Position numbers and translations under genes: made by a program. Below the pieces are notes generated by a model. It made no database searches, had not been told where the DNA came from, and saw only the letters and a list, made by a program, of their open reading frames with translations. Shown here piece after piece: positions 23,886 to 35,828 of a stretch of DNA of 64,000 bases (position 1 is its first letter; the number at the start of each line of letters is the position of its first letter). Origin of the DNA: Moritella marina ATCC 15381 (GTDB taxonomy: Bacteria; Pseudomonadota; Gammaproteobacteria; Enterobacterales; Moritellaceae); contig NZ_CP044399.1 in the NCBI RefSeq assembly GCF_008931805.1, positions 3,769,370-3,833,369 on the forward strand, in the 5' to 3' direction.

Positions 23886-24506
23886 CTAGTTAATCGCCAA
23901 TCCATATTGTAAAACCAACTCAGCAATCGTCTTAGCCTGAAACTTTTTCATTAAACTCGATCTATGTACTTCCACAGTCCGGACAGCAATACATAATATA
24001 TCGGCAATCTGTTGATTACGCTTACCTTGTACCAACAATAATAATATGTCCTGCTCACGCTCAGTAAGTGATTGATAAGATAATAACGCACTGAGTTGTT
24101 GGCTACGCGCAACTGATTTATCGGCTGCAAGCATAATCGCCTGCACTAACTTTTCCCCATCGACCGGCTTTTGAAAAAAATCTACCGCACCCGATTTAAA
24201 CGCATCGACCGCCATAGATACATCGCCATGGCCAGTAAGAAAAATAATCGACAGTGGACTATTACATTGAGTCAGAATAGCTTGTACATCCTGCCCACGT
24301 AGTTCCGGCATCCGGCTGTCTAAAATCACACAGCCCGGCAGCATGATCTCGGCGTTATCTAAAAATGATGGGCCACCAGCATACGTAGTGACGTTAATAT
24401 CATAACCATCAAGCATAAATGCCAACGAATCACGTACTGATTCATCATCATCAACAACATAGACTGGCACTGACAGTTCATATCCTGTTACTGGCTTTTG
24501 ACTCAT
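23886..24506 (-). CDS. ttrR: Tetrathionate response regulator TtrR (FixJ/NarL type)
   Basis: Response regulator partner of TtrS that activates tetrathionate respiration genes. Receiver domain with the acidic pocket VVDDDESVRD, phosphorylation aspartate in CVILDSRMPE and lysine in FFQKPVDG. The C-terminal LuxR-type HTH reads LTEREQDILLLLVQGKRNQQ. I choose ATG 24506 because GAGGA stands eight bases before it; TTG 24521 and ATG 24515 are alternatives. It follows ttrS closely and lies divergent to ttrBCA, the standard ttr arrangement. Confidence 0.9.
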   Translation of the reverse strand: MSQKPVTGYELSVPVYVVDDDESVRDSLAFMLDGYDINVTTYAGGPSFLDNAEIMLPGCVILDSRMPELRGQDVQAILTQCNSPLSIIFLTGHGDVSMAVDAFKSGAVDFFQKPVDGEKLVQAIMLAADKSVARSQQLSALLSYQSLTEREQDILLLLVQGKRNQQIADILCIAVRTVEVHRSSLMKKFQAKTIAELVLQYGLAIN

Positions 24507-24530
24507 ATTAATCATCCTCAATTATAACGA

Positions 24531-26324
24531 TTATGGCAAGGGTAACTGTATGCTGACGCGACAACCAATGGGATCTGCGGCCACCAGCGAAAATTGACCA
24601 TGATGTGCTTCAATCACGTCACGACAAATCGCTAATCCTAAGCCTAATCCCTCTTTTTTAGTGGTGAAAAAGGCATTCTGTAATTCTGCACTCGCCGCCG
24701 TTAAGCCAATGCCATTATCCGTCACAGTTAATATTAACCTGTCATCACTATAGTGACTCTCGATACTAATTTGATTATTGACCAGCACTGCCGGATCTCG
24801 CATCAAACACGCATCTGCCGCATTGTTTAATACATTTAATAATACTTGCTGCAAGCCAACAATATCAGCCTCTAGATCCACAACATTACCGACACAAGAC
24901 TGGCTTACGGTAATATTCTTTTGCTGGAAATCATACTCTAGCAACTCTAAGGTATCAGTGAGTAATATTTGCACGTTACAGCGCGACTTCGCCACAGCAC
25001 GTTTATTAATAAGCGTACGTAATCGCTGCACAATATCATCTGCTCGCTTCACTTGCTGTTGTATTTTTTCTAATGCAGGTGTGATTGCACTGGCATCCGC
25101 ACCTTTATTTATGCGTAATAATCCGCCTTGACTGTAATTTAAGATTGCGGCCAGTGGTTGATTAATCTCGTGCGCGAGACTACTGCCCAACTCCCCCACA
25201 ATCGCCACGCGTTGCGCATGTTCTAACATGGCATTTTTTTCTTTTAAACGATTTAAGGTGGCTGTTAATTTACGCTCACTGCGACTAAAACGGTATTCCA
25301 AAATTAAATGATAAACACTTAATAACAACACGAATAAAAATACTACCCAAGCCCATTGTTGATTCTTCTTGATCCAAACAGCAGCTTCCTGCCACCAAGG
25401 TCGTTGTAAAGGATGCATATCCAAGTCACGATATAATTGGTCGACAGACAATTGGCTGATGGGTGGTGTCCAACCTGTAGAATAAGCCGCAATACTGGCA
25501 GCATGATCACCGGGTAAAGCTAATAAGGCGCGGGTTATTTTTTTGGCTAACGTGGCTGAAATAGCACTGGTTTTGGCAATAGACCAGTTCGGATATAACT
25601 GCGTAGACAGCGCACAAGCAAAATTATCCGGGCTGATATCATCTAACACACGGAATACACCTTGTTGAATCAAGCCTTCTTCTAACATGCTTTCGAGTTG
25701 GCATACCGGTACTACGGCAGCATCCACATAGCCATCTCGTAACTGGTAAATAATGGCATCGACAGGAAAACCTAAAAACGATACGTCAGAGAAAAATGCG
25801 GTGGGATTAATCCCTAAATTTTGCACCGTCAGTTGCATCGTTAAGTAACCACCAAAGGCATTACTGGCAACGGCAGCTATCTTGTCACCACTGACATCTA
25901 CTAAGTGTTGATAGTGCGAATCGGCGCGGACAATCAAAGCCGAGCCAATCACATGAGTACCGTCACCGAGTTTACTGTTTAACGTCGCTAACCAAGACAA
26001 AGGGTATTGCCGGCCTAAACGCACCGCTTGCCCAGGGTTGGTCACCACTACATCGACACTTTGTTGTTCTACTGCGATTTCCATTTCGACCAATGTAAAA
26101 GGGTGTAGTCTAAATTCACTATTGGGGATCTGACTTTGTAGCCATAATAAGGTCGGTTGCCAGCGCTGTTTAGCTTCAAAGACACCACGCGTTGCTAATA
26201 CGCCCACATCAACGGTGGTAATGATTGGCTTGATAGCAGTCTTGGGATCAGTCGCGTTACTGGCGTGCACTTGCGTCATCATCAGCAAGGTAGCAATCAC
26301 TACTTTTATTAATACGTTAGCCAC
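24531..26324 (-). CDS. ttrS: Tetrathionate sensor histidine kinase TtrS
   Basis: Senses tetrathionate in the periplasm and phosphorylates TtrR. It has an N-terminal signal-anchor, a PhnD-like periplasmic binding domain (about 40-320) and a membrane helix (WAWVVFLFVLLLSVYHLIL). The kinase core follows with H-box LAHEINQPLAAILNYSQGG, N-box LLNVLNNAADAC and G-boxes DNGIGL and GLGLGLAI. GTG 26324 is preferred (AAGGG six bases before); a TTG at 26345 gives a seven-residue longer protein. Located immediately upstream of ttrR and divergent from ttrB. Confidence 0.92.
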   Translation of the reverse strand: MANVLIKVVIATLLMMTQVHASNATDPKTAIKPIITTVDVGVLATRGVFEAKQRWQPTLLWLQSQIPNSEFRLHPFTLVEMEIAVEQQSVDVVVTNPGQAVRLGRQYPLSWLATLNSKLGDGTHVIGSALIVRADSHYQHLVDVSGDKIAAVASNAFGGYLTMQLTVQNLGINPTAFFSDVSFLGFPVDAIIYQLRDGYVDAAVVPVCQLESMLEEGLIQQGVFRVLDDISPDNFACALSTQLYPNWSIAKTSAISATLAKKITRALLALPGDHAASIAAYSTGWTPPISQLSVDQLYRDLDMHPLQRPWWQEAAVWIKKNQQWAWVVFLFVLLLSVYHLILEYRFSRSERKLTATLNRLKEKNAMLEHAQRVAIVGELGSSLAHEINQPLAAILNYSQGGLLRINKGADASAITPALEKIQQQVKRADDIVQRLRTLINKRAVAKSRCNVQILLTDTLELLEYDFQQKNITVSQSCVGNVVDLEADIVGLQQVLLNVLNNAADACLMRDPAVLVNNQISIESHYSDDRLILTVTDNGIGLTAASAELQNAFFTTKKEGLGLGLAICRDVIEAHHGQFSLVAADPIGCRVSIQLPLP

Positions 26325-26426
26325 GAAAAACCCTTGCTCATACAATGCATCATAAACTCACACCATCCATTACAAATAAGATAACCACCTCAGCATACCA
26401 AAATAGCCACAAAGCCAAAATATTTA

Positions 26427-26440
26427 TTGTTTTAGATCAA
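26427..26440. promoter_or_regulatory. FNR-type site upstream of ttrB
   Basis: TTGTT-TTAG-ATCAA matches the FNR consensus TTGAT-N4-ATCAA at nine of ten positions. In Salmonella the ttr operon needs FNR and anaerobiosis, so oxygen control is expected. The site lies 92 bp upstream of ttrB and 103 bp from ttrS. Confidence 0.6.
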
Positions 26441-26452
26441 GCCAACCTTGGG

Positions 26453-26471
26453 TATGTGGAAAACCACAATA
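26453..26471. promoter_or_regulatory. Putative TtrR operator, copy 1 (ttrB side)
   Basis: TATGTGGAAAACCACAATA, with core dyad TGTGG-N4-CCACA. The same element, 18 of 19 bases identical, recurs at 31662-31680 ahead of tsdB. The dyad, its place in the ttrS/ttrB intergenic region and its recurrence make TtrR the obvious candidate binder. Confidence 0.6.
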
Positions 26472-26531
26472 CAACATACCTCTTAATTTCCAGACAATGG
26501 CCTTAATCACTATTAACCACAAGGTGTTCTC

Positions 26532-27305
26532 ATGGACTCAACTAAACGCCGCTTAATGACCCGCCTCGGTGCATTAACTGTAGGCGCAGCCATCATACCG
26601 GTGTCGACGGCAAACCCGCTCACCACAACCATTATTCGTAATAACGAAGCCCCCGATCGAAAAGGCCAGAGCGGTAAACGTTATGCCATGGTGGTTGATT
26701 TACGTAAATGCGTCGGTTGCCAAGCGTGTACAGTTGGTTGCAGCATTGAGAACCAAGCACCTATTGGCCAATTCCGTACCACAGTAAAACAATACGAAGT
26801 CACTTTAGATGACGGCAGCAGTGAATTACAAAATGTTAAATCATTTACCCTACCACGCTTATGCAATCACTGTGAAAACCCACCCTGTGTGAAAGTATGC
26901 CCAGTACAAGCAACCTTCCAACGTGACGACGGGATTGTCATGGTCGATAACGAGCGCTGCGTGGCTTGTGCTTATTGCGTGCAAGCTTGTCCTTACGATG
27001 CCCGCTTTATTAATGAAGAAACCCTCACGGCTGACAAATGTACCTTCTGTGCCCATCGCTTAGAAGAAGGTTTATTACCTGCCTGTGTAGAAACCTGTGT
27101 GGGTGGTGCGCGTATTATTGGTGATATTAAAGATCCTAACAGCCAAATTAGCCATTTAATGCGCGAACACCAAGCAGACATCAAGGTATTAAAACCGGAA
27201 GAAAACACCCAGCCACATGTGTTCTATATCGGCATGGATGACGCGTTCACCAGTAATGTTGACGGTAAAGTAGCCATCTACGACCCTGCAGGAGAAAACG
27301 CATGA
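26532..27305 (+). CDS. ttrB: Tetrathionate reductase subunit B (4 x [4Fe-4S])
   Basis: Electron-transfer subunit between TtrC and the catalytic TtrA at the periplasmic face. The Tat-like signal KRRLMTRLGALTVGAAI is at the N-terminus. Four ferredoxin-type cysteine clusters follow (CVGCQACTVGC, CNHCENPPCVKVCP, CVACAYCVQACP, CTFCAHRLEEGLLPACVETC). 257 residues. Overlaps ttrC by four bases, so they are coupled. First gene of ttrBCA, same order as Salmonella. Upstream lie an FNR-type site and the putative TtrR operator. Confidence 0.95.
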   Translation: MDSTKRRLMTRLGALTVGAAIIPVSTANPLTTTIIRNNEAPDRKGQSGKRYAMVVDLRKCVGCQACTVGCSIENQAPIGQFRTTVKQYEVTLDDGSSELQNVKSFTLPRLCNHCENPPCVKVCPVQATFQRDDGIVMVDNERCVACAYCVQACPYDARFINEETLTADKCTFCAHRLEEGLLPACVETCVGGARIIGDIKDPNSQISHLMREHQADIKVLKPEENTQPHVFYIGMDDAFTSNVDGKVAIYDPAGENA

Positions 27306-28435
27306 ACATCACTGAAATTTTAGTCCAACCACAAGCCATTGCTTGGCTCCCCTGGGCAGTACAATACTTTTTTTATATTGGTTCGGCGTATGCGGCAGCA
27401 ATATTGTTTTTATTAAGTTATATATTCCGTGCTCATACCAGCCATTACTTACGCTCGGCATTAGTACTGACCATGTCGATTGGCGCCGTTGTTGGCCCAC
27501 TGGCATTAACAGGTGACTTACACCAACCGGGTCGCGCTTTGAACTTTTATAGTCATATAACACCTTGGTCATGGATGTCATTGGGTTCGCTATTTTTACC
27601 GCTATTTTCAGCATTAACGATATTAACGGCTTGGTTATATTTACGTGATGATATTGCCAAACTCAAACACAGTGACAGTGCTATCGCCCAGAAGATTGCC
27701 TTGTTTAGTTTAGGTAATTGGCAGACCAGTAGTAAGCAAATGATCACAGCAACCGTGGTGACTTGCCTTGCAGGTTTAACGGTGGCGCTATACACAGGCG
27801 CAGAGATATACGTAGTACAAAATCGTCCTCTGTGGCATCAACCTGCCGCGCCATTATTGTGGTTTGTGACTGCATTCATCGGTGCCATTGGCTTTGCGTT
27901 ATTACTGTTAGCGCTATTCCCTATTCCTGCCAAAGCGAATGTCTTTACCCAAAGCGACCAAGGATTAATAAAACGCGCCCTGTTAGTCAGCGCCATCTTA
28001 GCCGCAGTGTTACTGCCAATCTGGGCATCCAATAATGCCTCATTTTCGTTATATGAAAGCGAGGCATGGTTAGTTCGTTTGGGCAGCTTGGCGGTCAGTT
28101 TCTTGGCCTGTATGGGCATTGCATTGCTAGCCTCTAAAATTGCACGGTATAACCGTCCGCAATTATTAATCATGAGCGCGATCAGCTTGATCTGTTGTTG
28201 GTATCTACGTTGGGTCACCATCATGGATGTACAAACTATCGCTAAATTTGACCAAGGACCGTATCCGTATGAATTACCAATGGGATCTGCTGGGTTACTC
28301 GGTATTCTTGGTATGGCAGGTCTGTGGTTAGCCTTAGCGCTCGCCGCGTCAGAAATAGTGTCGATATCAGCTAAATCATTAACAAAGAAATCATCAATAA
28401 AACAAGCATTCAGCAAACCACAACAGGCACAGTAA
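27302..28435 (+). CDS. ttrC: Tetrathionate reductase membrane subunit C (NrfD family)
   Basis: Quinol-oxidising inner-membrane anchor passing electrons to TtrB. 377 residues with about nine to ten hydrophobic segments, starting with WLPWAVQYFFYIGSAYAAAI. The GDLHQPGRALNFYSHITPWSWMSLG segment is the NrfD/PsrC family signature (acidic residue near the quinol pocket). Slightly longer than Salmonella TtrC (about 340). Overlaps the end of ttrB and is followed after 10 bp by ttrA. Confidence 0.93.
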   Translation: MNITEILVQPQAIAWLPWAVQYFFYIGSAYAAAILFLLSYIFRAHTSHYLRSALVLTMSIGAVVGPLALTGDLHQPGRALNFYSHITPWSWMSLGSLFLPLFSALTILTAWLYLRDDIAKLKHSDSAIAQKIALFSLGNWQTSSKQMITATVVTCLAGLTVALYTGAEIYVVQNRPLWHQPAAPLLWFVTAFIGAIGFALLLLALFPIPAKANVFTQSDQGLIKRALLVSAILAAVLLPIWASNNASFSLYESEAWLVRLGSLAVSFLACMGIALLASKIARYNRPQLLIMSAISLICCWYLRWVTIMDVQTIAKFDQGPYPYELPMGSAGLLGILGMAGLWLALALAASEIVSISAKSLTKKSSIKQAFSKPQQAQ

Positions 28436-28445
28436 GGGCTTAATT

Positions 28446-30287
28446 ATGGATAACAAACGTCGTCAATTTCTTAAATCAGGTCTTGCTGTGGGTGGTGCTG
28501 GCGCTTTTGCAGCGGGTTATGCAACCACCACATCACATGCGGTACATGGCATTATCGATGGTACTGCCGGTAAAAAAACCAAACACCCGCATCATGGCAA
28601 TTCATTAACACCAGAATATAGGGTGACTGAAAACGGTAAGCTGATCAATAACCCAGCGCAGCGTGTGGCACCGTCAATGTGTTTCGGCTGTTGGACCTTG
28701 TGTGGTTTACGTGTACGTGTAGATAACGCCAGTGACGAGATATTACGTATTTCTGGTAACCCGTATCACCCATTATCAAACGAACACCAAATTCCCTTTA
28801 ATACCCCAGTCAAAGATGCGTATATCGCCATGGCGGGTGAAGCTGGATTAGACGGGCGATCAACCGCCTGCGCCCGTGGTAACGGCATGATGGAAATCCG
28901 TAAAAGTCCGTATCGGATCACTCAACCGTTAAAACGTGTTGGTAACCGCGGTGAAGGTAAGTGGATCCCGATCAGCTACGAACAACTGTTAGAAGAAGTG
29001 GTTGAAGGTGGCGATCTGTTTGGTGAAGGGCATGTTGACGGTTTACGGGTGATCCGCGATGTTAAAACCCCACTCGATCCGCTTAATCCTGAATACGGCC
29101 CGAAAGCCAACCAGTTATTAATGACCAATGCCGGTAATGAAGGCCGTGACGATCTGTTTAAACGTTTCGCGTTCAACAGTTATGGCACCCGTAACTTTGG
29201 CCATCACGGTTCTTATTGTGGTTATGGTTTCCGCGCTGGCTCTGGCGCCTTAATGAATGATCTAAAAAAATTCGCTCACGTTAAGCCAGACCTAGAGAAC
29301 TGTGAATTTGCGTTATACATAGGTATGTCGCCAGCACAGGCGGGTAATCCCTTTAAACGCCAAGCACGTCAATTAGCCACCGCACGTACCAAAGGTAACT
29401 TTAGTTATACCGTGGTATCTCCAGCGCTACCGGCATCATCAAGCTTAGCAGCGGGTGACAATAACAACTGGTTGCCAATCAAGCCCGGCACTGATTCCGC
29501 TTTAGTACTTGGTATGATCCAATGGATATTAGCCAATGATAAGTTTAATACAGCCTTCTTAACACAACCAGGTCCGAATGCGATGAAAACCGCAGGCACT
29601 GCCCATTGGTGTAATGCCACGCACTTGGTAATAAGTGATAAGGATCATCCACGCTACGGCTATTTCCTACGCGCTTCAGAAGTAGATCTTGGCTTTACTG
29701 GCACGCCATTATCTGAATCGGATCCGTACGTGATCGTCGACGCACAAAGCGGTGATCTTTCAGTACACACACAAGATCAACCTGCGCGATTATTCATTGA
29801 TCAAATCGTCACGACTAAACAAGGTGATGTACAAGTTAAATCATCACTACAACATTTAAAAGAATCGGCATTTGCCCACGATCTTGCGTTCTACAGTGCA
29901 CAATGTGATATTCCAGTAGCGACGATCACCGCGCTAGCGAAACGCTTTACCAGTCATGGTACTAAAGCCGTTGTCGATAGTCATGGCGGCAACATGCACA
30001 GTAATGGTTTCTACAATGCCTATACGATCCTAATGCTCAACGCGCTGATTGGTAATATCAATCTGAAAGGCGGTGTCATGGCGAAATCAGGCGGTTATCC
30101 AACATCAGGGAAAGGCCCGCGTTACGATTTCACCAAGTTTAAAAATAAAGTAAAACCAAAAGGGATCTTTTTATCACGCAGTAAATTCCCGTACCAAAAA
30201 ACCAGCAATATAAACGTCGTGTCGCCGCCGGTGAATCGCCATATCCAACACGATCACCTTGGTATCCGATCTCTGCGCCGTTATTAA
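28446..30287 (+). CDS. ttrA: Tetrathionate reductase catalytic subunit A, N-terminal piece (frameshifted)
   Basis: Molybdopterin-guanine-dinucleotide enzyme reducing tetrathionate to thiosulfate in the periplasm. This piece carries the Tat signal DNKRRQFLKSGLAVGGAGAF, the [4Fe-4S] cysteines in MCFGCWTLCGLRVRV, and the probable Mo-ligand cysteine in HGSYCGYGFRAG. From about 30196-30210 the reading frame is lost: the last roughly 26 residues, up to the stop at 30287, are out of frame and unlike TtrA. The other half follows at 30350-31534 in a different frame. Joined by one inserted base the pieces make a protein of about 1030 residues, close to Salmonella TtrA (about 1020). Confidence 0.9.
   Translation: MDNKRRQFLKSGLAVGGAGAFAAGYATTTSHAVHGIIDGTAGKKTKHPHHGNSLTPEYRVTENGKLINNPAQRVAPSMCFGCWTLCGLRVRVDNASDEILRISGNPYHPLSNEHQIPFNTPVKDAYIAMAGEAGLDGRSTACARGNGMMEIRKSPYRITQPLKRVGNRGEGKWIPISYEQLLEEVVEGGDLFGEGHVDGLRVIRDVKTPLDPLNPEYGPKANQLLMTNAGNEGRDDLFKRFAFNSYGTRNFGHHGSYCGYGFRAGSGALMNDLKKFAHVKPDLENCEFALYIGMSPAQAGNPFKRQARQLATARTKGNFSYTVVSPALPASSSLAAGDNNNWLPIKPGTDSALVLGMIQWILANDKFNTAFLTQPGPNAMKTAGTAHWCNATHLVISDKDHPRYGYFLRASEVDLGFTGTPLSESDPYVIVDAQSGDLSVHTQDQPARLFIDQIVTTKQGDVQVKSSLQHLKESAFAHDLAFYSAQCDIPVATITALAKRFTSHGTKAVVDSHGGNMHSNGFYNAYTILMLNALIGNINLKGGVMAKSGGYPTSGKGPRYDFTKFKNKVKPKGIFLSRSKFPYQKTSNINVVSPPVNRHIQHDHLGIRSLRRY
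30196..30211 (+). other. ttrA: Frameshift site in ttrA
   Basis: Homology switches from frame 0 to frame 2 here: ...PYQKTS ends in the first frame and YKRRVAAGESPYPTRSPWYP is read in the second. One base is missing. A run of six A residues (30196-30201) is the likeliest spot. Either a sequencing or assembly error or a true inactivating deletion. Confidence 0.8.
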
Positions 30288-30349
30288 CAGAACATTTATC
30301 GGCTGCTGTAGATGGTTATCCGTATCGCGCCAAAGCCTGGATCAACCAC

Positions 30350-31534
30350 ATGGCCAATCCTATGTATGGTGTTCCTGGTTTAGCCAATTTGCTCGGCGAG
30401 AAATTAAAAGATCCAAAACAGCTACCACTGATCGTGTCTGTGGATGCTTTCATTAATGAAACCACGGCATTATCCGATTACATCGTTCCTGACACAGTGA
30501 CTTATGAAAGTTGGGGCATGGTGACACCTTGGCATGGCGTGCCGACTAAAACAGTCACAGCACGCAGGCCGATTGTGAATGCCTTAACAGAAAAAACCGC
30601 TGACGGTCGCAGTATCAATTTAGAAAACTTCTTAATTGATATTGCCAAGAAAATACAGCTCGGTGGCTTTGGCGATAATGCCATTAGTGATAGCCAAGGT
30701 AATTGGCACGGTATTCACAATGCGGAAGATTTCTATCTACGCTCTGCAGCTAACTTAGCCTATGTCGCCAATGGTGTGCCTGCAGCAAGCAGTGAAGACA
30801 TGGTGCTATCTGGCCTAGAACGTCTACTACCAGATATGCAGCGGGTATTAACACCAGAAGAACTCGGTAAAGTCGCCTTTATCTTTGCCCGTGGAGGTCG
30901 CTTTGAAGATGCCACCGAAGCCTATAAAGGCGACGAAATGAAACACAAATGGCAGAAGCCATTAGCGATCTGGAATGAAAAAGTCGGTACGTCACGTAAT
31001 ACCATTACTGGTGAGTATTATTCTGGCTGTCCTACTTGGCATCCACAAAAATTAGCCGATGGCACACCCTTAGCAGAAAAATACCCTGCAACGGAATGGC
31101 CGTTTACCTTAACCAACTTTAAATCCAATATACACAGTGCAGTATCGAACCTGTCACCGCGTTTAAATTCGATTAAAGGCGTTAACCCGGTTTATATCCA
31201 TCCGACTGACGCGGCTAAAATTGGCTTAACAACTGGTGCTATGTTTACCATCACCACACCAACCAGTGCCACTAAAGCGATGGCGTTAATTGTTGATGGG
31301 GTAAAACAAGGCACACTTGGGTTTGAACATGGCTTTGGTCATAGAGAACTCGGTGAACGCGCCCATTGGATTGGCGATATACAACAACCAGTAAAAATGA
31401 AATCCAATGATGGCGTGAATATTAACGATATTGGTTTAATCGACCCAACCCGAGAAGGCAAAGGCGTATTGCTCGATTGGGTGGTTGGCGCGGCAGCAAG
31501 ACAAGCACTGCCCGCAAAAATTAGTTTAGGCTAG
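30350..31534 (+). CDS. ttrA: Tetrathionate reductase subunit A, C-terminal piece (frameshifted)
   Basis: Second half of the molybdoenzyme, with SVDAFINETTALSDYIVPDTVTYESWG in the third domain and the C-terminal molybdopterin dinucleotide-binding domain around FTLTNFKSNIHSAVSNLSPR and VYIHPTDAAKIGLTTGAMF. The same frame stays open and homologous upstream to about 30209, well before the ATG at 30350, which shows this is a broken continuation rather than a separate gene. It ends before a terminator at 31575. Whether a functional TtrA is made depends on whether the frameshift is real. Confidence 0.88.
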   Translation: MANPMYGVPGLANLLGEKLKDPKQLPLIVSVDAFINETTALSDYIVPDTVTYESWGMVTPWHGVPTKTVTARRPIVNALTEKTADGRSINLENFLIDIAKKIQLGGFGDNAISDSQGNWHGIHNAEDFYLRSAANLAYVANGVPAASSEDMVLSGLERLLPDMQRVLTPEELGKVAFIFARGGRFEDATEAYKGDEMKHKWQKPLAIWNEKVGTSRNTITGEYYSGCPTWHPQKLADGTPLAEKYPATEWPFTLTNFKSNIHSAVSNLSPRLNSIKGVNPVYIHPTDAAKIGLTTGAMFTITTPTSATKAMALIVDGVKQGTLGFEHGFGHRELGERAHWIGDIQQPVKMKSNDGVNINDIGLIDPTREGKGVLLDWVVGAAARQALPAKISLG

Positions 31535-31574
31535 TTAACTTATTAATTAAGTCAGAGCCCAGTCATTAATTAAC

Positions 31575-31610
31575 AAGCCCACAGGTATAACAACACCAGT
31601 GGGCTTTTTT
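31575..31610 (+). terminator. Terminator of ttrBCA
   Basis: AAGCCCAC ... GTGGGCTT hairpin with a 16-base loop, ending in six T residues. It separates ttrBCA from the tsd pair, so the latter needs its own promoter. Confidence 0.85.
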
Positions 31611-31661
31611 GATCACAAGGCTAATCCACATAGCAATACCCTACTAATATACCCCTTAATT

Positions 31662-31680
31662 TATGTGGATAACCACAATA
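31662..31680. promoter_or_regulatory. Putative TtrR operator, copy 2 (tsdB side)
   Basis: TATGTGGATAACCACAATA, one base different from the element at 26453-26471. It lies about 130 bp upstream of tsdB. A TATAAT at 31762-31767 without a matching -35 box is consistent with an activator-dependent promoter. Confidence 0.6.
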
Positions 31681-31807
31681 TCTTTCTCTTTCTCAAACAG
31701 CCAGACTATGCCCGTAATATGACCTTGCCTATAAGAATCCTACTTACGGCCAAAGCATTACTATAATTAGACCGCCCCTGCAATCATCGACTATCTGGAG
31801 ACATACC

Positions 31808-32425
31808 ATGCCCATAAAGAATATATTCCGCAGCATCATTGGACTAAGCGCTTTGCTGTTAGTGCAAGCGCCAGCATTTGCAGCAACGCCCCCCCCGGCG
31901 ATGGTATGTGAAAGTTGTCATGGCACGGCAGGTTTAGGTACGCCAAATCTATCGCCAATGTTGGCAGGTATGGATAAAGATTATTTAGTAGAACAAATTA
32001 ACCACTTTAAAAATGGCAATCGAAAAAATCCTTTAATGTCAGCAATGGCGATGACATTAGCTACGCCTGAAGCCGTGGAGCAAGTAGCGACATTTTTTGC
32101 ATCCTTACCTGCACCAGTGATCAATGATATTGAAAAACGTGGTGATAACGTCATCATTACCGACCCCGCTAGAAAACTGGTTTACCAAGGTGATTGGTCC
32201 CGTAACATCCCCGCTTGTGCAACCTGTCATGGTCCGAGCGGTTTAGGCGTCGCCCATTTCCCGCGTCTAGCCAGTCAGCATGCTGATTATATCACTAGCC
32301 AATTAACCGCATGGCAAAGCAAGCAGCGCAGTGGCGATCACAACAACGTAATGGCTACCATAGCGCAGCAATTAACAGCCTCTGAAATCCAACATCTTGC
32401 GCAATACTTTGCGGCGATCAAATAA
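31808..32425 (+). CDS. tsdB: Diheme cytochrome c4-like protein (TsdB-type electron partner)
   Basis: Periplasmic electron carrier. 205 residues with a signal peptide ending at about AFAA-TPPP and two c-type heme sites, CESCHG and CATCHG, one in each of two homologous cytochrome c domains. Diheme c4-like proteins of this kind are called TsdB when paired with the thiosulfate dehydrogenase TsdA, the next gene 9 bp downstream. Name given by context and architecture; a general cytochrome c4 remains possible. Confidence 0.8.
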   Translation: MPIKNIFRSIIGLSALLLVQAPAFAATPPPAMVCESCHGTAGLGTPNLSPMLAGMDKDYLVEQINHFKNGNRKNPLMSAMAMTLATPEAVEQVATFFASLPAPVINDIEKRGDNVIITDPARKLVYQGDWSRNIPACATCHGPSGLGVAHFPRLASQHADYITSQLTAWQSKQRSGDHNNVMATIAQQLTASEIQHLAQYFAAIK

Positions 32426-32434
32426 GGTCATCTA

Positions 32435-33487
32435 ATGAAAACATTATCTCTTATCCTCGGCGCAGGTTTATTGCTCTCGACGTTTGCCAACGCTGAAGCC
32501 AATTTACCCGATCGCCAAACTGAATTGCCAGCCCATGCCAAAGCGGCAAGTAGCGAATACTTAGTACCACGTGATTTAGCCACTATCCCAGATAGCGAAT
32601 TTGGTAATAAAGTAAAACTCGGTTATTCATTATTCGTTAACTCGCAACCAATGCGCGGTCAATACGTGGGTAATGAACAAAACTGTGCCAATTGCCACAT
32701 GCAAGCGGGTATGAAAGCCAACTCAGCACCATTGTGGGGCGCATTCATGGCCTACCCTGCCTATCGTAAAAAGAACGACAAAGTAAATACTTACGCAGAA
32801 CGTATCCAAGGTTGTTTTAAATATTCAATGAACGGCGTTGCACCTGCTGTTGATTCACCAGAACTCGTTGCCTTAACAGCTTATTCATATTGGTTAGCCA
32901 TGGGTGGCTTGTTAGATAAATACGACATGCAGAGTACGCCAATCCCAGAGATGAGTGATACTGTCGTGCAACTTGGTGGTAAAGCGGATTCATTTGTATT
33001 ACCTGAAAAGATTGCGGCAGCATTGCCAGTAGAGCAACGTAATAAGTTAGCTGGCCGAGGTTATCCTAAATTAGCTAAATCAGCAGAAACACCATCTATC
33101 GAACGTGGTGAAATAGTTTATAAGCAAACTTGTGCCAGCTGCCACGGTGCAGAAGGCCAAGGCTTGAAACAAGACGGCGTACAATCATTCCCGCCACTTT
33201 GGGGTAAAGACTCATTTAACTGGGGCGCTGGCATGCATCGCGTTAATACCGCCGCTTACTTTATCTATGAAAACATGCCGCTGGGTAAAAGCATCCAACT
33301 TAGCAATCAAGAAGCATGGGATGTCGCCGCATTTATGAATAGCCATGAACGTCCACAAGATCCACGCTTCACTGGTGACTTGAAAGCCAACCAAGAGCAA
33401 TACCATAACCACCAAGGTTATTACGGCAAATCAGTAAACGGTAAAGTACTTGGCGAACATGCCTTTCCGGTTAAAGCGGTAGATTAG
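32435..33487 (+). CDS. tsdA: Thiosulfate dehydrogenase / tetrathionate reductase TsdA
   Basis: Periplasmic diheme enzyme interconverting two thiosulfate and tetrathionate. 350 residues with signal peptide (to about FANA). Heme 1 site CANCH (Cys84, Cys87, His88), the diagnostic QGCFKYSMNG segment whose Cys127 is the expected distal heme-1 ligand, heme 2 site CASCH (233-237), and NMPLGK with the probable heme-2 methionine 281. The residue before that Met is Asn, as I recall for Campylobacter jejuni TsdA, which mainly reduces tetrathionate, rather than Lys as in Allochromatium. Follows tsdB by 9 bp; terminator follows. Confidence 0.92.
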   Translation: MKTLSLILGAGLLLSTFANAEANLPDRQTELPAHAKAASSEYLVPRDLATIPDSEFGNKVKLGYSLFVNSQPMRGQYVGNEQNCANCHMQAGMKANSAPLWGAFMAYPAYRKKNDKVNTYAERIQGCFKYSMNGVAPAVDSPELVALTAYSYWLAMGGLLDKYDMQSTPIPEMSDTVVQLGGKADSFVLPEKIAAALPVEQRNKLAGRGYPKLAKSAETPSIERGEIVYKQTCASCHGAEGQGLKQDGVQSFPPLWGKDSFNWGAGMHRVNTAAYFIYENMPLGKSIQLSNQEAWDVAAFMNSHERPQDPRFTGDLKANQEQYHNHQGYYGKSVNGKVLGEHAFPVKAVD

Positions 33488-33566: not shown

Positions 33567-34517
33567 CTATTTATTTTCCACACTTTGACAAATCATATCC
33601 CTTACCCACTTATGTCCGGGTTCATCATTATTACGCTCATGCCATAACAACACATACACCAATGACGAAAAATCGATTGGCAAAGGTAACTGTACCAAGT
33701 CATATAACTTCTGCGCATGGGATACGAAGCTCGAGGGTAATGTGAACACTAAATCACTGTGCGCACAGACACTCGCGGCACCGTAAAAATCCGGTAAAGT
33801 CGCACAAATATGGCGGTGCTGACCGGATTCAGCTAATTGATAATCCAATAACCACCAATCATTACCTTCACAGCGCACTTGCACATGCGACATACTTAAA
33901 TAAGTGTCGACATCCCACACTCCAGCTTTAATACTCTCCAGCATAGGATGGTTACTGCGAACCAAACAGACTTGACTATCGGTCAGTAAACGTTGATGCG
34001 CTATGCCCTCAGGTAAATTATTCAAGCGAAAATCAGCCGTTGGGTGCAACTCCCTTGCGGTAATGCCAAAATCAATCTGTCCTTGCTGTAAGTCTAATAA
34101 TGACTTTTCATTCCAGCCATAAATCTCTAGATTCAGTTTTGGCGCTTGCGATAAAATGGGGCCAATGTAATAAGGCAGTAACGTTTCATAGGCACTTTCC
34201 AACATCGCAAACGAAAACTGGCGATGACTTTTTTCAGGCATAAAACTCGGCGGTAAACTGATTTGATACAGGCCCTGCAATATCGTCGGTAATTGCAATT
34301 TTAACTGCAAAGCATGGGCGGTCGGTTTCAAACCATGGGCGGTACGTAAAAATAACGGATCACCTAAGGTATCGCGCAAACGATTAAGACTTTTACTTAA
34401 CGCCGACTGACTCAAATGCAAACGGCTCGCGGCACGAGTAACACTTTCTTCTTCTAATAATATTTGTAATATCACCAACAAATTAAGATCTATTTTGGCA
34501 AGGTTGTCTAAATTCAT
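33567..34517 (-). CDS. LysR family transcriptional regulator
   Basis: 316 residues: winged helix-turn-helix (about residues 9-66, SVTRAASRLHLSQSALSKSL) and a C-terminal effector domain. Related by its N-terminus (LAKIDLNLLVILQILLEEES) to the NodD/SyrM-like branch of LysR proteins. It is divergent from the Bcr/CflA-type transporter, sharing a 108-bp intergenic region, so that transporter is its likely target. Effector unknown. Position next to tsdA is probably coincidental because a terminator separates them. Confidence 0.88.
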   Translation of the reverse strand: MNLDNLAKIDLNLLVILQILLEEESVTRAASRLHLSQSALSKSLNRLRDTLGDPLFLRTAHGLKPTAHALQLKLQLPTILQGLYQISLPPSFMPEKSHRQFSFAMLESAYETLLPYYIGPILSQAPKLNLEIYGWNEKSLLDLQQGQIDFGITARELHPTADFRLNNLPEGIAHQRLLTDSQVCLVRSNHPMLESIKAGVWDVDTYLSMSHVQVRCEGNDWWLLDYQLAESGQHRHICATLPDFYGAASVCAHSDLVFTLPSSFVSHAQKLYDLVQLPLPIDFSSLVYVLLWHERNNDEPGHKWVRDMICQSVENK

Positions 34518-34625
34518 AAGATATTCCTTAAAGGAAATTCAGTATTGAAATTATACCACTTCCATTCATACCATGCTTTACGTAAACTGCCCCGCATTAA
34601 TCCATGCCTTTACTTGAGAATAACA

Positions 34626-35828
34626 ATGCGCCGAAATATATTACCTATTTTGATGGCAATGGTGGTGTTAAGCCCCCTCGCGATCGATATCTACCTGCCT
34701 TCAATGCCGACGATGGCCACCGAGTTTCAGGTATCCTCAAGTGAAATCCAATCCACCTTAGTATTATTTTTATTTGCTATGGGTATTGGTCAGATATTAA
34801 TTGGGCCACTAGCCGATCGATTTGGCCGCCGCCCTGTGGCGATTGCTGGTGTCGTCTTGTATTGCTTAAGCAGCCTACTTGCAGCTGGCGCCGCAGAGTT
34901 TCATTGGCTACAAATAGCACGTGTACTGCAAGGTATCGCTGCCTGTGCCACTTCAATTGTAGTATTTAGTGCGGTACGTGATAGCTTTGATTCTAAAGTC
35001 AGCGCACATTACTACAGTTACTTAAATGGCGTTATTTGTGTGATCCCTGCATTAGCACCAACTTTAGGTGGTCTATTAGCATTGCAGTTTGGTTGGCGTT
35101 CTACGTTTATTTTCATGGCAATATACGGTCTTATTATACTGTTATTAATCAGCAGAAAGTTACCGGAAACGCGTCCTGACAATACCGATACATCCGGTTC
35201 GCTTTATCACTGGGATCGCTTTAAACCAGTATTACACGATGCACACTTTATGTTTTATGCCATTGCTTGCATGGTCGGTATGGCTTCAATCTTAACGTAC
35301 GTCTCGTATGCACCCGATTGGTTGATCCGCAATTTAGGCATCGCCGAGTTAGAGTTCAGTGGTTTGTTTGGCCTGAATGCCATCGTTAATATCGCCGCCT
35401 GTTTTGCTGCACCGTTAGTGATTAAACGCTTCGGTAATCGCCCTACCGTTATTATCGCGCTACTCGCTTTATTATCATCAGCTGCATTACAGTTGATGGT
35501 ACAGCAATGGGGTCCAACCGCAGGCATGGCCGCAGCTTTTGCCTTCATGTTACCTATGATGCTGCTTTGCATTGGTTTCGCATTATTGCTTGGCCCTGCA
35601 ACGAGCATGGCATTAGCCGCATTTGGCGAACGTGCAGGTACAGCGGCAGCAATGTTAGGTTGTATCCAAATGAGTGGCGCAGCATTACTTGCTGGTTTGA
35701 TCCAACAAACAGATTTAACAGCCCCTTACGCGGTTATCGTATTGATGGGTGGTTTATCACTGGTATTATTAGCAATCATGCTCACACCACGTCTTAATCA
35801 TTGGCATCAAGAACAAGTACAGCATTAA
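34626..35828 (+). CDS. Bcr/CflA-type MFS drug efflux transporter
   Basis: Twelve-helix proton-driven exporter of the major facilitator superfamily. The protein begins MRRNILPILMAMVVLSPLAI and has DIYLPSMPTMATEF of the Bcr/CflA group, then the family motif IGPLADRFGRRPVAIAGV between helices 2 and 3. The open frame extends upstream to 34545, but those residues are not transporter-like, so ATG 34626 is chosen. 400 residues. Substrate unknown; bicyclomycin-like compounds or sulfonamides are typical for the group. Probably regulated by the divergent LysR. Confidence 0.9.
   Translation: MRRNILPILMAMVVLSPLAIDIYLPSMPTMATEFQVSSSEIQSTLVLFLFAMGIGQILIGPLADRFGRRPVAIAGVVLYCLSSLLAAGAAEFHWLQIARVLQGIAACATSIVVFSAVRDSFDSKVSAHYYSYLNGVICVIPALAPTLGGLLALQFGWRSTFIFMAIYGLIILLLISRKLPETRPDNTDTSGSLYHWDRFKPVLHDAHFMFYAIACMVGMASILTYVSYAPDWLIRNLGIAELEFSGLFGLNAIVNIAACFAAPLVIKRFGNRPTVIIALLALLSSAALQLMVQQWGPTAGMAAAFAFMLPMMLLCIGFALLLGPATSMALAAFGERAGTAAAMLGCIQMSGAALLAGLIQQTDLTAPYAVIVLMGGLSLVLLAIMLTPRLNHWHQEQVQH

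Follow-up and report, generated by a model that had tools for sequence, protein, structure and literature searches.

The window examined in this study, a 64,000-nucleotide stretch of Moritella marina ATCC 15381 (NZ_CP044399.1, positions 3,769,370 to 3,833,369), carries a tetrathionate locus in which two near-identical elements, one ahead of ttrB and one ahead of tsdB, are very probably operators for the adjoining response regulator TtrR. On this reading, which draws on comparison of sequences and on analogy with Vibrio parahaemolyticus, the molybdoenzyme genes ttrBCA and the cytochrome genes tsdBA would be under joint control. The regulon has already been described in a related family, and Moritella is a further member for which the reading is correct and well supported. 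What is new here is modest: the extension to Moritella, an asymmetry between the two promoters in an FNR-type site, the confinement of the box to tsdBA clusters that are linked to ttr, and co-variation of a TtrR helix with the box.

Both predicted boxes lie on the plus strand, at 26453..26471 ahead of ttrB (TATGTGGAAAACCACAATA, with the dyad TGTGG-N4-CCACA at 26455-26468) and at 31662..31680 ahead of tsdB (TATGTGGATAACCACAATA, dyad at 31664-31677). The first-pass annotation of this DNA had located these two 19-mers correctly and recognized that they are one base apart; the dyad that it drew from them is present in both, and these are its sole two exact matches within the window. The two promoters likewise share GTGG-N4-CCAC, which the portion of a recent paper available to us (PMC11293645; PLoS Pathog 2024) defines as the "ttrR box" in the ttrB and tsdBA promoters of V. 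parahaemolyticus. According to the same portion, TtrR gel-shifts the V. parahaemolyticus promoters and fails to shift promoters from which the box has been deleted, tsdBA expression is TtrR-dependent and tetrathionate-induced, and the box, marked across other bacteria, often co-occurs with the ttr cluster. We infer by analogy that binding, box requirement, and tetrathionate induction carry over to Moritella. The first-pass annotation, which was aware of no report of tsd being controlled by TtrSR, is outdated on that point, as PMC11293645 describes exactly that. Its proposal that TtrR controls both operons finds support in conservation, synteny, footprinting across aligned promoters and helix co-variation, as well as, by analogy, in the V. 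parahaemolyticus experiments on this box (PMC11293645).

The scan of the 4.76 Mb genome that the annotation had suggested gave a divided answer, in that the bare core is not rare while exact copies of an extended form are confined to the two promoters. With up to two mismatches, the 10-base core has 15 matches in the window against 21.9 expected, and its exact form occurs at four places in the genome against two for a reversed control. The bare core is therefore near chance and unconvincing alone. The extended 15-base form, TATGTGG-N4-CCACAATA, is rare, with two exact places (about 0.012 expected per genome from the base composition of the window), none at one mismatch and nine at two. At up to three mismatches it shows no genome-wide excess (123 matches against 194 for the control, both strands), and with such chance-level counts we rejected the idea that the core dyad marks a regulon across the genome. 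Seven of the nine two-mismatch sites fall within open reading frames of at least 90 amino acids. The other two are C2:3874994 (L004/L271), which adjoins a tRNA array, and C2:2992220 (L270), between divergent genes named MarC and DUF481 by profile search; in the 3 kb stretch examined for each, neither adjoins a recognized sulfur gene. A plasmid search using the ttrS-ttrB gap returned no match.

Conservation within the genus is carried by position and spacer. Among 11 Moritella genomes, six have ttrB (at least 94% identity) and five have tsdA; GTGGAAAACCACAAT stands ahead of ttrB in all six, and GTGGATAACCACAAT ahead of tsdB in all five. The spacers stay distinct in every Moritella bearing the boxes, AAAA at ttrB and ATAA at tsdB. 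A looser box pattern occurs at 21 places in the genus, 10 of them elsewhere and with other spacers, against 33 for the reversed control; the association in the genus rests on position and spacer and not on counts of this pattern. In the tsdB promoters of the five Moritella, invariant columns make up only 18% of the alignment, yet the 18 bp box core, ATGTGGATAACCACAATA, is kept whole as the longest invariant run, the next longest being 5 bp. The ttrB promoters are more uniform (62% of columns invariant in the six genomes), with the longest invariant runs at the box (21), the start codon region (16), TTGTTTTAGATCAA (14), and ATTTCCAGACAAT (13).

The association extends well beyond the genus. From a scan for proteins related to TtrA we took the best 80 of 330 named loci and added six Moritella regions, which gave 86; one duplicate (L070) and two loci without usable DNA upstream of ttrB (L123 and L128) were dropped, leaving 83 ttrB loci to be scored. 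With TtrS counted as present at 150 bits or more and TtrR at 100 bits or more in the locus, an exact box lay no more than 450 bp from ttrB in 64 of 65 loci with TtrSR, in neither of the two with TtrR only, and in one of 16 with neither protein. The loci lacking TtrSR are mostly of Halomonas, Pseudomonas, and Achromobacter type. We also compared a stretch of TtrR which we take to be the DNA-recognition helix of LuxR-type domains. It reads R-T-[VI]-E-[VI]-[HC]-R-[AS] in all 64 TtrR proteins with a box in the locus and in none of the three without, where it reads K-T-[VA]-[EH]-[VI]-H-R-[QH]; judged from these sequences, the predicted DNA-binding helix of TtrR co-varies with the box. A class-wide search placed TtrA in four of 369 genomes and TsdA in one, with the genome of the window included in both counts.

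For tsdBA, the box follows linkage to ttr. In the named set together with Moritella (without L070), an exact box precedes tsdB in 15 of 16 TsdB-bearing loci, the sole exception being Arhodomonas (L110), where tsdBA runs in the opposite direction. An order-wide search found tsdA in 41 of 394 genomes; 15 of these have an exact box ahead of tsdB, and in 14 of the 15 the genes adjoin ttrSR-ttrBCA. The remaining 26 tsdA genomes all lack an exact box, and a one-mismatch word lies upstream in four of them. With 26 of 41 tsdA genomes lacking it, the box was rejected as a general feature of tsdBA. It therefore tracks ttr-linked tsdBA rather than tsdBA at large. Six of the box-less tsdA genomes (G546, G607, G645, G720, G743, G746) have a TtrS match of 48-54% identity elsewhere.

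Several observations weigh against reading the two elements as TtrR operators. The bare core shows no enrichment genome-wide. One locus with TtrSR, from Alcaligenaceae (L127), lacks an exact box, and one from Spiribacter (L117) has a box before ttrB with TtrSR not found in the stretch examined. The loci are not independent, many being from Vibrio, and the box-less ones come largely from other lineages; the DNA 5' of ttrB is also short in some of them (L120, L138, L146), so TtrSR may have been missed there. In a one-contig genome, G479, the box stands ahead of tsdBA with no TtrS or TtrA match at the thresholds used, and the only TtrR match (33% identity) covers the receiver portion of a longer protein. 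In the window itself, TtrR, TtrS, TtrB, and TtrC are best matches to their NCBIfam models yet fall under the curated cut-offs, and a regulator beside phsABC in another genome (L224) reaches 213.8 bits on the TtrR model and its kinase 397.2 on the TtrS model, where the proteins of the window reach 202.5 and 428.6.

A few loci depart from the common arrangement. In G479 (L206, 4486-6300), the box before tsdBA is perfect, and on visual comparison the promoter is similar to those of Aliivibrio, a likeness that suggests transfer. Aliivibrio sp. EL58 (L072, 13185-13196) keeps a box 3' of ttrA, at the position that tsdBA occupies in two related Aliivibrio loci; its 21.8 kb stretch yielded neither TsdA nor TsdB, and the box looks like a leftover operator. 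In Vibrio hangzhouensis (L092, 13191-14289), a box precedes a lone divergent TsdA-like cytochrome of 33% identity that replaces tsdBA. These three oddities fit a box that goes with ttr-linked tsdBA. In the Spiribacter metagenome-assembled genome (L117, 5328-8080), profile search placed MoeA, MobA-like, and YqeC genes upstream of the box-bearing ttrB. A third box word in several loci of the Vibrio splendidus group and boxes inside ttrA or ttrR were set aside as coding coincidence, as these lie within open reading frames.

The two promoters appear to differ in a second site. An FNR-like site, TTGTTTTAGATCAA (26427..26440, plus strand), has its centre 28 bp upstream of the centre of the ttrB box and is unvarying in the ttrB promoters of all six Moritella. 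Each of the 65 ttrB promoters with a box that we scored has a site of the type TTGAT-N4-ATCAA, with one or two mismatches, and it always starts exactly 29 bp before GTGG. At the same place in the 25 box-bearing tsdB promoters (22 distinct stretches) no such site was found, as 5 to 10 of the 10 bases mismatch there. A scan of 15 of these tsdB promoters to 250 bp upstream turned up weak candidates at other positions in a few of them, for example with two mismatches at -43 (G001) and at -56 (L071).

The published ttrR box adjoins the -35 region on its upstream side, and the spacing here is compatible with that, as a putative -10-like hexamer fits at +37 from the start of GTGG in both promoters: GACAAT (26493..26498, plus strand) for ttrB, and CAGACT (31702..31707, plus strand) for tsdB, with GACTAT 2 bp downstream as an alternative. 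A hexamer with A at position 2 and T at position 6 stands at this offset in 57 of 65 ttrB and 24 of 25 tsdB promoters. If transcription starts 7 bp past the hexamer, which would put the starts near 26505 for ttrB and 31714 for tsdB, the TtrR box would be centred at about -43.5 and the FNR-type site at about -71.5. In the mechanism we propose, TtrS would sense tetrathionate and phosphorylate TtrR, and a TtrR dimer, bound at GTGG-N4-CCAC immediately 5' of the -35 region, would then activate the divergent ttrSR/ttrBCA pair and, separately, tsdBA. Since the ttrB promoter bears an FNR-type site one fixed step upstream, ttrBCA should require low oxygen as well as TtrR; the tsdB promoter is without one, and tsdBA should therefore answer to TtrR alone.

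That a single sensor governs two arms which differ in how they depend on oxygen, with box and FNR-type site at ttrB and box alone at tsdB, is a tentative idea to which we give less than even weight. The available portion of PMC11293645 speaks against it, reporting that the ttr promoters of V. parahaemolyticus seem FNR-independent and are induced in air. The Vibrio ttrB promoters that we scored, V. diabolicus included, do have the FNR-type site; V. parahaemolyticus itself lies outside the named loci. If the split were true, cells in air that meet some tetrathionate could make TsdBA, which could oxidize thiosulfate to more tetrathionate and thereby prime TtrSR, and the primed pair could switch on the molybdoenzyme as soon as oxygen drops. 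The promoter layout makes such gating of the two arms simply testable.

Could the boxes be read by another FixJ-type sulfur regulator, or the regulator pair of the window be a ThsSR-like pair that answers thiosulfate? We consider this improbable. In its favour, the operator that the accessible text of PMC5408782 gives for ThsR of Shewanella halifaxensis, TATGTGGTTTACCACAAT, shares the dyad, and our order-wide scan met a word with the TTTA spacer of that operator, which some genomes carry twice at a distance of about 94 bp. One such genome, G755, has twin boxes 94 bp apart before phsA beside a TtrSR/ThsSR-like pair (L224, 2321-9356), an arrangement like that described for S. halifaxensis in the available part of PMC5408782; its PhsA gene scores 1333.2 bits against a cut-off of 694 by profile search. 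The helix of the G755 regulator, RTIEVHRS, is nearly that of the TtrR of the window, and its score on the TtrR model is as high. The TtrR and TtrS models thus do not separate the tetrathionate pair from the thiosulfate pair, and, because the TtrR model scores a phsABC-side regulator as high, the name TtrR in the window rests on the neighbouring ttrBCA. Against such a reader, the pair of the window adjoins ttrBCA and not phsABC, and in the same genome the next-best full-length regulator match after TtrR is only 33% identical, over residues 24-207.

We find it very hard to credit that the tsdB copy is a functionless recent duplicate of the ttrB promoter, or a product of chance. The single base that separates the two 19-mers is what such an origin would predict, but the AAAA and ATAA spacers are each kept in all box-bearing Moritella, the FNR-like site has not been carried along to tsdB, and the box stays unvarying while the surroundings of the tsdB promoter diverge; chance is further opposed by the expected count of the extended form. 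Equally slight is the probability that the dyads act as transcribed hairpins of an attenuator or terminator, for although a pattern scan lists 31664-31677 as terminator-like and the ttrB dyad is capable of folding (-7.4 kcal/mol, z -2.6), the spacing to the putative -10-like hexamers would place them upstream of the transcription start, the outer bases AT and ATA are conserved nearly as well as the stem, and the gel shifts reported in the available portion of PMC11293645 show protein binding.

Reading the boxes as TtrR operators agrees with the genes that surround them. On the minus strand stand ttrR (23886..24521) and ttrS (24531..26345), followed on the plus strand by ttrB (26532..27305), ttrC (27302..28435), ttrA, a hairpin, tsdB (31808..32425), and tsdA (32435..33487). 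TtrR is a FixJ-type response regulator with a receiver domain and a LuxR/GerE helix-turn-helix (Pfam Response_reg and GerE; helix RTVEVHRS); its top NCBIfam match, the best of 79 families, is the TtrR equivalog NF040749 (202.5 bits, curated cut-off 290), and FixJ 5XSO is among its two top Protein Data Bank (PDB) matches. TtrS, a histidine kinase with a PhnD-like periplasmic domain (Phosphonate-bd, HisKA, HATPase_c), best matches the TtrS equivalog NF040750 (428.6 bits, curated 750); its start codon, TTG as listed, is uncertain. The iron-sulfur subunit TtrB best matches NF011569 at 397.7 bits, slightly under the curated 416, and also clears the DsrO cut-off (233.5 against 200), though at a lower score than for NF011569. 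TtrC, an NrfD-type membrane subunit (Pfam NrfD), has NF011568 as its sole match (204.8 bits, curated 314). TsdB is a di-haem cytochrome c with two cytochrome c stretches, its gene adjoining tsdA. TsdA, a SoxA/TsdA-type di-haem cytochrome, combines a SoxA/TsdA domain (PF21342 SoxA-TsdA) with a second cytochrome c domain (PF00034) and is kin to solved TsdA structures, its PDB relatives being 5LO9 (named Cytochrome C) and the thiosulfate dehydrogenases 4WQC and 4V2K. Between ttrA and tsdB, where the first-pass annotation had placed a terminator, folding indeed finds a terminator-like hairpin followed by a T run (approximately 31575..31608, plus strand; -17.5 kcal/mol and z -5.1 for 31565-31615), which the terminator pattern scan did not list because its outer stem encloses 16 bases and the scan allows eight. 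Directly 3' of tsdA (33567-35828) lie a divergent LysR regulator and a Bcr/CflA-type efflux pump.

One gene of the locus needed correction. Here ttrA does not form a single open frame; it is in two parts in different frames, both on the plus strand: an N-terminal part at 28446..30287 (positions 5-579 of the NF011567 profile, 792.9 bits) and a C-terminal part at 30350..31534 (positions 628-1020, 500.9 bits), each below the curated cut-off of 1750. The break falls in 30190-30350, and ttrA is one continuous frame in all five other Moritella that bear it. It is possible that the break is a real loss, and possible that it is an assembly error; if real, the strain keeps an intact sensor and intact tsdBA without a whole TtrA.

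We found no published account of tetrathionate or TtrR regulation in Moritella in the open-licence literature, where PMC11293645 was the only hit for the "ttrR box" or for tsdBA with FNR; the available text of PMC7759655 holds nothing on the control of tsdA, and that of PMC5408782 (Mol Syst Biol 2017) calls a search for the TtrR operator of S. baltica inconclusive. The same text of PMC5408782 gives the ThsR operator in the S. halifaxensis PphsA342 promoter and notes its resemblance to the FixJ operator. That operator is nearly the same 18-mer as the Moritella box, but it controls phsA, answers thiosulfate, and occurs in two copies flanking a CRP site. Together these boxes define precisely how operator and promoter are arranged for tetrathionate and thiosulfate sensors. 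Salmonella TtrSR-ttrBCA has the sensor, regulator, and molybdoenzyme in common with Moritella and is under TtrR and FNR control, as far as the available portions of PMC5408782 and PMC11293645 describe it, whereas S. Typhimurium has no tsdBA homologue according to the latter. The closest counterpart is V. parahaemolyticus, as described in the available portion of PMC11293645. Moritella differs from it in genus, in being described here from sequence, in the frame-broken ttrA of this genome, and in an FNR-like site noted on the ttrB side only, but the gene set of TtrRS-ttrBCA-tsdBA, the box, and the regulator family are the same. A two-enzyme tetrathionate regulon demonstrated experimentally in one Vibrio would reach the marine genus Moritella and, as judged from sequence, Aliivibrio and other Vibrio.

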